From: Cyanobium sp. FACHB-13342
GTDB lineage: Bacteria > Cyanobacteriota > Cyanobacteriia > PCC-6307 > Cyanobiaceae
NCBI RefSeq assembly: GCF_014697415.1
Contig: NZ_JACJRT010000015.1
Location: forward strand, 1 to 64,000
DNA length: 64,000 bases
Direction of reading: 5' to 3'
Each line of letters starts with the position of its first letter. The stretch's first letter is position 1. The notes below the pieces were generated by a model. The model was not told where the DNA came from and did not search any database. It saw only the letters and a list, made by a program, of their open reading frames with translations. Positions 59,333-62,991 of this stretch are shown here, in pieces. Both the position numbers and the translations under genes were made by a program.

Positions 59333-60139
59333 ATGACCACAACCAATCCCTACGCTCTCGAAACTCTTTCCAATTTCCTTAAGGGGAAGGTCGCCATCGT
59401 GACTGGTGGTAACAGTGGGATCGGCAAGGCGATCGTGGAAAATCTGGCCGAACTCGGCGCCAAGGTGGTGATTGACTACCGCTCCCATCCTGAGGCCACC
59501 GAGGACCTGGAGCGGGAGATTGGCAGCTATGGCGGCAGCAGCTATGGCGTTCAGGCCGATGTGTCGAAGCTCGATGATCTGCAGCGGCTGGTGCAGGCGG
59601 CTGTGGACAAGTACGGCCGCCTGGACGTGATGGTGAACAACGCCGGCGTCGAGACCCGCACGTCGATCCTCAACACCACACCCGACGATTTCGACAAGGT
59701 ACTTAATGTCAATTTGCGCGGTGTGTTCTTTGCCTGTCAGTACGCCGCCAAGCAGATGATCGCCCAAGGCGGCGGCGGCCGGATCATCAACATCTCCTCC
59801 GTGCATGAAGACTGGCCGATGCCGGAGAACACTCCCTACTGCTGTGCCAAGGGAGGGGTGCGCATGCTCACGCGCACGGCAGCGTTGGAGCTGGCCTCCC
59901 ATGGCATCACGATGGTGAATGTGGGCCCCGGCGCCGTGGCGACGCCCATCAACGACTCCACCATGAACAATCCCGAGTTGCTGGCCAAGCTCGATGCGGC
60001 CATTCCCCTGGGTCGGATGGCCCAGCCGGAGGAGATTGCCCGGGTGGTGGGTTTTCTGGCCAGCGATGCGGCCAGCTACATCACCGCCACCACGATCTTC
60101 GCCGACGGTGGCATCATGCAGAGCAGCCCGGGGCTGTGA
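59333..60139 (+). CDS. Glucose 1-dehydrogenase-like SDR
   Basis: A classical 268-residue short-chain dehydrogenase: TGGNSGIGKAI cofactor motif, NNAG, catalytic Ser in INISSVHEDWP and Tyr/Lys in YCCAKGG. The segments SSVHE, VGPGAVATPIN and ADGG at the C-terminus closely follow Bacillus glucose 1-dehydrogenase, which oxidises glucose to gluconolactone with NAD(P). Other sugar alcohols are possible substrates. It lies across from the gluconolactonase operon. Confidence 0.87.
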   Translation: MTTTNPYALETLSNFLKGKVAIVTGGNSGIGKAIVENLAELGAKVVIDYRSHPEATEDLEREIGSYGGSSYGVQADVSKLDDLQRLVQAAVDKYGRLDVMVNNAGVETRTSILNTTPDDFDKVLNVNLRGVFFACQYAAKQMIAQGGGGRIINISSVHEDWPMPENTPYCCAKGGVRMLTRTAALELASHGITMVNVGPGAVATPINDSTMNNPELLAKLDAAIPLGRMAQPEEIARVVGFLASDAASYITATTIFADGGIMQSSPGL

Positions 60140-60183: not shown

Positions 60184-60897
60184 ATGCGCATCACCCGTGA
60201 GGAGATCGTCCGATTGCGCAAGCGCCATCGGGGCTATCTGATCACGCTGGCCACGGAAGTCGCCCTGTTGCTGCTGTTGCCTGTTGCGCAGGGCTCCATC
60301 TGGCTGTTGTCCGGCTCGTTGATCGTGCTGGCATTGGTGTTGATGCTGTTCGTCAGCCGTTATTCCCCCCTGCACCAAACACGCCCGTTGATCTATGGCT
60401 TGGGTGGCCTTGCCATCGCCCTGGAATTGCTCTGGCACCTGGCCCTCACTGCTCAGCCCGCATTGGGCCGGGCGCTGACCATTCCCCATGTGATCGTCTG
60501 GCTGGTTTTTCTCTCCCTCGCGGTGATTCGCAAGGTCAAAACCTTGAACCGCGAGCCCTTCGTCACCGTGTCGGTGGTAATGGGTGCTGCATCGGGTTAC
60601 ATGCTCGTGGGCTTGGCGGGTGGGCTGTTGCTCACCGCCCTCTGGGTGCTCGATCCCTCCGCCTTTGACCTGACGGCGTTGCCGGCCGTCGGCTCCACGA
60701 CGGCACTCCCCAATGTGGTGGTGGCACCGGCGTTGATGGCGGCTGCCTTCACCATGCTCACCACTGTTGGCACCACGGTGCTGAAGACCAGCCATGTGGC
60801 CGGCCAGGTGGTGACCACGGTGATCACGGTGGTGGGTCAGCTCTATGTAGCCATCCTGATTGCCTTGATCCTCGGCCGTTTCCGTTGGAGGGCCTGA
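60184..60897 (+). CDS. Channel-like membrane protein with a degenerate filter
   Basis: A 237-residue membrane protein with about six helices, homologous along its length to the next gene's product. At the pore it reads TTVGTTV (residues 193-199) where the neighbour has TTVGYGD at exactly the same residue numbers, and the following helix aligns without gaps (QLYVAILIALILGRF versus PLYLAIVMGLLISRY). It cannot form a normal K+ filter. A regulatory or heteromeric subunit is the likeliest role. It ends at the TGATG start of the channel gene. Confidence 0.75.
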   Translation: MRITREEIVRLRKRHRGYLITLATEVALLLLLPVAQGSIWLLSGSLIVLALVLMLFVSRYSPLHQTRPLIYGLGGLAIALELLWHLALTAQPALGRALTIPHVIVWLVFLSLAVIRKVKTLNREPFVTVSVVMGAASGYMLVGLAGGLLLTALWVLDPSAFDLTALPAVGSTTALPNVVVAPALMAAAFTMLTTVGTTVLKTSHVAGQVVTTVITVVGQLYVAILIALILGRFRWRA

Positions 60898-61688
60898 TGC
60901 GCCGTCGTCATCGCTTTTACCGCCATCTCTTTGCGGTCTGCCTGCTGGTGATGGCTTCCATGGCCTTCCCCTATCCCCTGCGCCGCCTGGCACTGGCGGG
61001 CAATGTGCTGCTGATCCTGCTGCTGGCCTTTGAGCTGGGGCAGCCGGTGCGCCCCCGACAGACCCGTCGCCATTGGAGCGACTCGGTCTACCGCTGGACC
61101 GGGTTGGCCGGTGTGGCCTTTCAGATCATTTGGATGGTCAGCCCGACCACCTTTGCTGTCGTCGGCTTTCCGGTGATGGTGGTGATCACGGCCTTCATCT
61201 TCTGGAGCCTGAAGCGGCTGTTGCTCTGTCTCGGCCAGGAAGACCGCATCGGCATGGATGTGCTGGCGGGGGCCGTGGCGGGCTACCTGTTGCTCGGGAT
61301 CAGCGGCGGGTTGTTGTTTGGTGTGATGGAAACGCTGGCGCCGGGCAGCTTTGTGAGCCATACCGATGGTGCTCGGGCCTTGCTGCTGCGTGGGCTCCCC
61401 ATCAACGCGGCCGGGCTCCAGGTGTGGAGCCTCGATTTCACCCGGATCCAGTATTTCGCCCTGGTGAGTCTCACCACGGTGGGCTACGGAGACATTGTGC
61501 CGGCCACGCCTCCTGCCGAGATGGCGAGTGTGGCGTTAAGCATCAGTGGCCCCCTGTATCTGGCGATCGTGATGGGCCTGTTGATCAGTCGCTACACCTT
61601 GCAAAGCGAGGCGGAGGAGGTCAGGGGGCGCCCAGTGGATGTTCCAGCCCCACATCCACCTTCAGGTGCTGATTCGGACGACCGGTGA
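60897..61688 (+). CDS. Potassium-channel-like protein
   Basis: A 263-residue six-helix ion channel subunit with pore sequence FALVSLTTVGYGDIVPATP; the TVGYGD filter at 194-199 predicts K+ selectivity. No voltage-sensor arginine ladder and no RCK domain are obvious; the C-terminus is short, acidic and Pro-rich. Its 3' end overlaps the convergent NADH dehydrogenase gene by 68 bases. Start ATG at 60897 inside the stop of the paralogue. Confidence 0.85.
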   Translation: MRRRHRFYRHLFAVCLLVMASMAFPYPLRRLALAGNVLLILLLAFELGQPVRPRQTRRHWSDSVYRWTGLAGVAFQIIWMVSPTTFAVVGFPVMVVITAFIFWSLKRLLLCLGQEDRIGMDVLAGAVAGYLLLGISGGLLFGVMETLAPGSFVSHTDGARALLLRGLPINAAGLQVWSLDFTRIQYFALVSLTTVGYGDIVPATPPAEMASVALSISGPLYLAIVMGLLISRYTLQSEAEEVRGRPVDVPAPHPPSGADSDDR

Positions 61689-62991
61689 TCAGCAGGGAAG
61701 CCCGTTGCCGGGTGGCGATGGCCCATAGCCATTTGGTGAGCAGGCTCAGGCGATTTTCATTGGCGGGCATGAACATCAGGTGTGCCAGGCCCCAGAGGAT
61801 CCAGCCCGGCAGGCCAGTCACCTTCAGGCCGCGCAGATCGGCCACCGCATGCAACCGACCCAGCACCGCCATGGTGCCGAAATCGGTGAACTGGAAGGCC
61901 TTGTGCTGGCGTCCTTGGATTTGGGCCACGATGTCGGCGGCCACCCAGCCCCCCATCTGCACGGCGGGCCCGGCCATGCCCGGCAGGGGTTTGCCATCGC
62001 TGGTGTGGCTGTAGGAGCAGAGATCTCCGATCACCCGGATCTCCCCATGGCCCGGTATGGAAAAGTCCGGCTCCACCACCACCCGTCCGCCCCGGTCCAC
62101 CGTGCAACCGCTGGCGTCCGCCAGCACCTGGCCCAGATGGGAGGCCCGCACGCCGGCGGTCCAGCAGATGGTGGCGGCCTCCAGGGTGCGGGCACCCGCG
62201 GCGGTGTTCACCACCACCTTGCCCTCCTCAATCGTCTGCACCCGTCCGCCCAGCAGCAGCTCCACCCCCACCGATTCCAGGTAGGTGCCAGCGGCGGCTG
62301 AGAGGCTCGGGTCCATGGCCCGCAGCACCCGATCGCCGGGGTCAATGAGGGTCACCTTGCACTGGTTCGGATCGAGTTGCTTGAAGTCGCGGGCCAGGGC
62401 ATGGGCCATCAGGTCCATGAGCGAGCCGGAGAGTTCGCAGCCTGAGGGCCCGCCCCCCACCACCACCACCGACTGCAGAACGGCCCGGCGCGCGGGATCG
62501 GGGGTCTGCTCGGCCTCCTCCAGGGCGATCAGCACCCGCCGGCGGATCTCATCGGCGTGCTCGAGGATCTTCATCGGTGGCGCCGCCTCACGCCACTCGT
62601 CATGGCCGAAGTAACTGCTGCCGGAGCCGGCGGCCAGGATCAGGTGGTCGTAGGCGAACTGGCGGTCGTTGAACACGATCTGCCTCGCCTGGGCGTCGAT
62701 CTCGGTGACTTCGCCCAGCAGCACTTGCACGTTGGGGGCCTGGCCCACCATCTGGCGCAGGGGCGTGGCCACGTCAGCCTCCGGAACCAGCCCGGTGGCC
62801 ACTTGGTAGAGCAGCGGCTGGAACAGGTTGAAGTTGCGCTTGTCGATCAGCGTTACCCGCACGGGCTGGTTGATCAGGGCGTGGCAGGCCTGCAGACCTG
62901 CGAAACCTCCCCCCACGATCACCACATGGGGGAGCGGTTTGAGGCTCTTGTCGGGGGGGTCGAGCTCCAGGAAGAAGCGTTCGCGGGCCAT
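61621..62991 (-). CDS. Type 2 NAD(P)H dehydrogenase (NDH-2)
   Basis: A 456-residue flavoprotein oxidising NAD(P)H to reduce quinone without pumping protons. It has FAD motif VVIVGGGFAGLQACHAL, RNFNLFQPLLYQVATG, NAD motif VVVGGGPSGCELSGSL, CWTAGVRAS, RVIGDLCSYSH and a membrane-association C-terminus (LPGWILWGLAHLMFM). This resembles cyanobacterial Ndb proteins. It could feed the quinone pool used by the alternative oxidase encoded 15 kb away. Confidence 0.92.
   Translation of the reverse strand: MARERFFLELDPPDKSLKPLPHVVIVGGGFAGLQACHALINQPVRVTLIDKRNFNLFQPLLYQVATGLVPEADVATPLRQMVGQAPNVQVLLGEVTEIDAQARQIVFNDRQFAYDHLILAAGSGSSYFGHDEWREAAPPMKILEHADEIRRRVLIALEEAEQTPDPARRAVLQSVVVVGGGPSGCELSGSLMDLMAHALARDFKQLDPNQCKVTLIDPGDRVLRAMDPSLSAAAGTYLESVGVELLLGGRVQTIEEGKVVVNTAAGARTLEAATICWTAGVRASHLGQVLADASGCTVDRGGRVVVEPDFSIPGHGEIRVIGDLCSYSHTSDGKPLPGMAGPAVQMGGWVAADIVAQIQGRQHKAFQFTDFGTMAVLGRLHAVADLRGLKVTGLPGWILWGLAHLMFMPANENRLSLLTKWLWAIATRQRASLLITGRPNQHLKVDVGLEHPLGAP

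Follow-up and report, generated by a model that had tools for sequence, protein, structure and literature searches.

Among cyanobacterial K+ channels, SynK (slr0498) stands for a "core-only" type with six transmembrane (TM) helices, of which a GYGD-to-GAGD mutant served as a non-conducting control (PMC2853561). By description, the two tandem paralogues considered here, named A and B, resemble the SynK type in their six predicted TM helices, a pore loop between S5 and S6, the absence of both an S4 charge array and a regulatory domain, and a size of about 240-260 aa; the T-x-G-[YF]-G-D filter is found in B, whereas A is without Y-G-D. Bacterial K+-channel homologues lacking TxGYG are represented by the NirBac proteins, where NirBac1.1 and NirBac1.2 are tetrameric and conduct non-selectively, and where NirBac2.1, with the filter TTGTD, resisted purification, with no function established for it (PMC4607889). 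While TTGTD follows the same T-x-G-T pattern as A, the NirBac proteins are of the 2-TM Kir type with a large cytoplasmic domain and no tandem canonical partner has been described for them; A, on the contrary, has six TM helices and ends at residue 237, right after S6, i.e., without a Kir-type cytoplasmic domain. Further precedents for altered filters are NaK and the NaK-CNG chimaeras (PMC5052707, PMC9822992). As in NaK and CNG channels, the inner T-x-G is kept in A, the outer GYGD is replaced and a polar residue directly follows the glycine, but this residue is Asp or Glu in those channels and Ser or Thr, then Val-Leu, in A, which also lacks a cyclic-nucleotide domain. The filter is likewise strongly altered in a further bacterial channel, NaKTs of Tsukamurella (LPMGNGPLSP), which proved to be a Ca2+-activated non-selective cation channel (PMC5052707), yet this is a 2-TM protein whose unusual prolines sit at the inner filter end, as opposed to the outer-end alteration of A. 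As to subunits of tetrameric channels that change a canonical partner, the KvS subunits (Kv5, 6, 8, 9) acting with Kv2 offer an analogy only, since they are eukaryotic and voltage-gated, whereas co-assembly of A and B is a candidate only. The KvS subunits retain a canonical filter. A distinct set of ion/potassium channels has been reported from freshwater picocyanobacteria (PMC9361551), the gene clusters of which were not matched to A or B. The literature searched, of partial coverage, contained no description of the A family and none of a heteromeric K+ channel in bacteria.

The window, i.e., the whole stretch of 64,000 nucleotides from Cyanobium sp. FACHB-13342 analysed here, contains both open reading frames at the coordinates originally assigned to them, with the following features:

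59333..60139, + strand: SDR (short-chain dehydrogenase) gene upstream of A (Pfam adh_short_C2, 1.6e-64), syntenic with A in many genomes
60184..60897, + strand: gene A, six-helix channel paralogue of 237 aa with the outer selectivity filter replaced
60760..60780, + strand: filter of A, residues 193-199, TTVGTTV (equivalents of KcsA T74-D80: T T V G T T V)
60895..60899, + strand: TGATG stop/start overlap of A and B (TGA, stop of A; ATG, start of B)
60897..61688, + strand: gene B, canonical six-TM K+ channel subunit of 263 aa (Pfam Ion_trans_2)
61473..61493, + strand: canonical filter of B, residues 193-199, TTVGYGD
61621..62991, - strand: NDH-2-like gene (FAD pyridine-nucleotide oxidoreductase), convergent, at the far end of the syntenic locus

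The SDR gene and A are separated by 44 nt. At the other end, the 3' ends of B (+) and of the NDH2-like gene (-) overlap by 68 nt (window 61621-61688), so that the variable C-terminal tail of B is antisense to the NDH2 coding sequence.

As judged from pairwise alignment, A and B are paralogues, homologous along their full length, with a Smith-Waterman score of 166 against 39 +/- 7 for 1000 shuffles, none of which reached 166, and 26% identity by BLASTP (E 9e-4). The filters TTVGTTV (A) and TTVGYGD (B) each start at residue 193, and the alignment is gap-free from the filter through the end of S6, both as initially annotated. The matching residue numbers were set aside as evidence because the offsets cancel out: A is extended by about 10 residues at its N-terminus and B by about 10 ahead of the pore helix, with lesser gaps in between, and the equal numbering is thus partly a coincidence, the longer N-terminus of A being offset by the longer pre-pore-helix loop of B. 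In Pfam, B passes PF07885 (Ion_trans_2) at 2e-10, with 40.9 bits vs. a curated cut-off of 22.5, and A has no match at E<=1, PF07885 included; the NCBIfam search with A returned just one unrelated, sub-threshold entry, and a PDB profile search with A as query returned no match.

Whole-genome and GTDB searches place A throughout the Cyanobiaceae, namely in Cyanobium, Vulcanococcus, Synechococcus and MAGs, the closest relatives being those of Cyanobium sp. T1B-Tous (96%), Synechococcus sp. CS-1331 (86%) and Cyanobium usitatum Tous (86%). A more distant filter-altered paralogue, A2, typically with LTTxGSPVLK, is found in other genomes and is absent from the window's genome. In a tree of 141 sequences from which the filter columns were excluded, A and A2 lie together on one side of a branch (SH-aLRT 99) with all canonical sequences opposite, and 82 A sequences from several genera form a single clade. 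Among 386 genomes sampled phylum-wide, A-type scores (>200 bits) occur in Cyanobiaceae only, and the best match to A in other cyanobacterial families is at most 71 bits, by which an extension of the family past Cyanobiaceae was ruled out in this sample; at the loci outside Cyanobiaceae recovered by related searches (L022-L025, L141-L145), the filters are canonical. Most likely, A has a single origin within Cyanobiaceae and shares its six-TM ancestry with B.

The replacement of the filter is itself conserved. The T-x-G-[YFL]-G-D filter is present in all 50 canonical Cyanobiaceae sequences, B included, and in none of the 82 A sequences, where YGD is kept in 0/82 and the shared signature is L-T-[TS]-x-G-[S/T]-x-V-L. 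Considering the columns in KcsA numbering (82 A vs. 50 canonical Cyanobiaceae sequences), A has T at T74 in 82/82, T or S at T75 in 80/82 and G at G77 in 80/82. At Y78, A has S (40) or T (38), i.e., 78/82, vs. Y or F in 50/50 canonical sequences; G79 is unconstrained in A (A, P, G, S, T, D, E) vs. Gly in 50/50, and D80 is Val in 67/82 vs. D in 50/50. In the pore helix, the W67/W68 columns hold Y then F/Y in 50/50 canonical sequences vs. mostly Ala, Gly or Ser in A. Asp or Glu after T-x-G, as in NaK and CNG channels, occurs in 0/82 A sequences. The initial annotation had one copy losing GYGD and becoming filterless: the loss of Y-G-D stands, but "filterless" is too strong, since the inner T-V-G half stays and T-T-V replaces Y-G-D as part of a signature of its own. 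Such a fixed replacement appears to fit a working altered filter better than decay, to which the preference for Ser or Thr beside G77 also points. In one small subclade the filter has drifted further (L174, TTVNNSV; L192, TTISNSV; L173, TTLGNGV; L175, TTTGADI), G77 being gone in two, and one A2 sequence has TTIDS at the filter.

The AF2 model of A (mean pLDDT 81.8, pTM 0.81, from an 11-sequence alignment) comprises six TM helices and an extended loop, with helices at 129-156, 181-193 (pore helix) and 205-236 (S6), and the model of B has the same layout (pLDDT 78.2). With A as query, 6-TM channels rank top in Foldseek, the best E of 0.24 not being significant. In VIA, residues ~121-237 of A superpose on the Kir6.2 and Kir2.2 (Kir/KATP) pore domains over ~100 residues at 2.3-2.6 A, with a Z of ~7 that by itself is not decisive for helical proteins; the top rows were complex I subunits and other helical proteins (Z ~8), taken as chance for helical bundles. 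Together with the alignments, these models predict for A the S5 - pore helix - loop - S6 domain of the tetrameric P-loop cation channel superfamily.

Nei-Gojobori estimates from ten tandem-locus pairs gave a dN/dS of 0.10-0.16 for A and of 0.12-0.33 for B. The ratio of A is clearly below that of B in eight of the ten; in the other two, both involving CS-1331, the values lie close together (A 0.164 vs. B 0.121, and A 0.098 vs. B 0.131), the dS of B being ~1.9, i.e., near saturation. Further A pairs lie mostly at 0.05-0.26, and one A2 pair at 0.46. By these ratios, A is a constrained gene under purifying selection; the degenerate copy, for which a lack of conservation and a high dN/dS had originally been named as the adverse outcome, is conserved in other genomes, with the same filter loss throughout.

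The locus has the general layout SDR - A - X - NDH2, where X is (i) B, (ii) in 15 loci, a gene of the ClC chloride-channel family (Voltage_CLC 6e-60; e.g., L082 4230-5558 and L098 4232-5569), or (iii) absent. In the window's genus, X is B in eight genomes and nine loci, and B also occupies this place in a second genus (g70), where SDR does not adjoin. The tandem B genes form one clade, which includes the copy of genome G014 (14 rows, SH-aLRT 98). In that genome, the locus (L179) reads SDR - B - NDH2, with A missing and an A2 elsewhere. In a further group, A stands solitary beside cytochrome c oxidase genes (L076). The majority of A genes have no neighbouring B, and the view of A as part of each canonical channel operon was ruled out on that ground.

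The overlap of A and B at TGATG in the window proved to recur. The search for conserved pairs elsewhere, as the initial annotation advised, found the tandem in two genera, with A and B overlapping by 1 or 4 nt at 12/12 junctions examined, compared with 7/24 for SDR-A and 0/15 for A-ClC, counts that are not independent as several loci come from close relatives. Both the 1-nt (TGATG/TAATG) and the 4-nt (ATGA/GTGA) types are found in each genus, which argues that the overlap was kept while its form changed. As the strongest evidence for a functional relation between A and B, this regularity would concern coupled synthesis and not assembly. Of the earlier proposal that the overlap implies 1:1 synthesis, translational coupling holds up; the ratio goes too far, as compact loci overlap at other junctions as well, SDR-A among them. 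Similarly, the suggestion of a heteromer or regulatory subunit gains from the conserved altered copy and the recurring overlapped pair, but it is not implied by the pair itself, given that most A genes are without B, that ClC genes occur as neighbours and that G014 has B without A at the locus. On the same grounds, an obligate A+B channel is unlikely; facultative mixed A/B tetramers where the genes overlap are quite possible. The altered-filter A family, conserved and of single origin, is the better supported and more general finding than the heteromer.

Tentatively, A is best regarded as an altered-filter cation-channel subunit, likely non-K+-selective and capable of standing alone, which, where the overlap exists, may enter mixed A/B tetramers. 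As a pore-forming subunit of the tetrameric cation-channel superfamily, it would have exchanged the outer half of the K+ filter (Y78-G79-D80, KcsA) for a small residue with a hydroxyl group, one free position and hydrophobic Val-Leu, keeping the inner T-x-G, the strand of which could still bind cations. Its pore would most likely pass monovalent cations with strict K+ selectivity lost, as in NaK (TVGDGN), CNG (TIGETPPP) and NirBac. It would work without a tandem B, as in most genomes; in lineages with the overlap, including the window's genome, A and B would probably be co-translated, and A might tune K+ selectivity or conductance within mixed tetramers. This proposal draws on the single clade recovered at SH-aLRT 99 even without the filter columns, on the fixed replacement columns combined with the low dN/dS in the tandem pairs, on the pore helix, extended loop and S6 kept in the model and superposable on Kir/KATP pores, on the frequency of A without a neighbouring B, on the A-B overlap being stricter than at the SDR-A and A-ClC junctions, and on the precedents NirBac1.1/1.2, NaK and the NaK-CNG chimaeras. 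It sits less well with the loss of G77 at L174 and L192 and with the TTIDS of A2, which ill suit a conserved conducting filter there, with the acidic residue after T-x-G in NaK and CNG vs. Ser/Thr in A, and with full-length fold matches that are not significant in Foldseek and VIA. Moreover, TbIRK is K+-selective without the signature (PMC5429665), and as such the relaxed selectivity of A is not derivable from sequence alone.

The interest of the family lies in the Y-G-D half being nearly invariant across K+ channels, where A (>80 sequences) has replaced it once and consistently, the canonical paralogues that share its cells serving as internal controls. The role of a lone T-x-G inner half, and whether bacteria build mixed-filter tetramers, thereby become testable in small bacterial proteins, and the family may bear on salt adaptation.

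A somewhat unlikely alternative has A as a non-conducting, silent or dominant regulatory subunit, with B as its obligate partner if adjacent and another canonical paralogue otherwise, which would alter conductance, gating or location. Of 300 Cyanobiaceae genomes, 69 have A or A2, and 66 of these 69 also have a canonical paralogue of the same type (E<1e-20). The remaining three (G133, G142, G171) are 82-85% complete; every A-bearing genome of 90% completeness or more has such a paralogue, which suits a subunit never conducting alone as well as it suits the altered-filter channel. With ~96/300 genomes having a canonical gene without A and ~135/300 having neither, canonical genes without A are common and A without a canonical gene is rare, so the dependence would run one way. 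The pattern is consistent with a dependence of A on a canonical subunit, yet genome size and phylogeny confound it, canonical paralogues being widespread and both genes missing in many small-genome members; the same confounding applies to the partner in the same cell that a KvS-like subunit calls for. The A-B overlap kept throughout, the loss from A of the aromatic cuff and of the filter Tyr, Gly and Asp altogether, and the tolerated loss of G77 in a subclade also favour a silent A. Against it, a subunit never lining a conducting pore would have no need of a strict Ser/Thr after G77 or of a conserved L-T-x-x-G, and most A genes share no operon with a canonical one.

A picocyanobacterial heterotetrameric cation channel made from co-translated A and B, where the T-x-G-[S/T] half-filters of A would replace some of the four TVGYGD strands and thereby set selectivity or conductance, is itself unlikely in that specific form; if true, it would give bacteria a natural equivalent of the mixed-filter channels of eukaryotes.

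Rather improbable is that A and B form separate homotetramers of different selectivities that are merely co-expressed, i.e., a K+ path next to a cation path, just as A and ClC would provide a cation and an anion path in the ClC lineages. The exchangeable partner gene of A in the slot X (B, ClC or nothing) and the B without A in the slot of G014 speak for it, as do the discordant histories of A and B in CS-1331. Between CS-1331 and Cyanobium usitatum Tous (L067 4304-4903 vs. L068), the DNA identity of B is just 60-71%, compared with 93-97% for A and 81-93% for most of the flanking SDR and NDH2 sequence, and B alone looks to have been replaced by a diverged allele in CS-1331. However, the A-B overlap is far stricter than the neighbouring junctions, suggesting selection on coupled synthesis, and the homologous, gap-free pore helix, loop and S6 make mixed assembly physically plausible.

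That A is a duplicate of B in decay, retained only by chance, deserves practically no credence, for despite the lost K+ signature and a frameshifted copy in one complete genome, this pseudogene or relaxed-copy account of A in general is refuted by a dN/dS below or similar to that of B in the tandem pairs and mostly low elsewhere, by the single clade across several genera and by its fixed replacement signature.

The frameshifted copy lies in the complete genome G126 (L199, G126:C1:3129158-3133599), where the pore region of A is lost, which indicates that at least one lineage can do without A. In another Cyanobiaceae genome (L163, G276:C1:1660074-1661547), two canonical paralogues, with TTVGFGD and TTVGYGD, stand in tandem and A is found elsewhere in the same genome.
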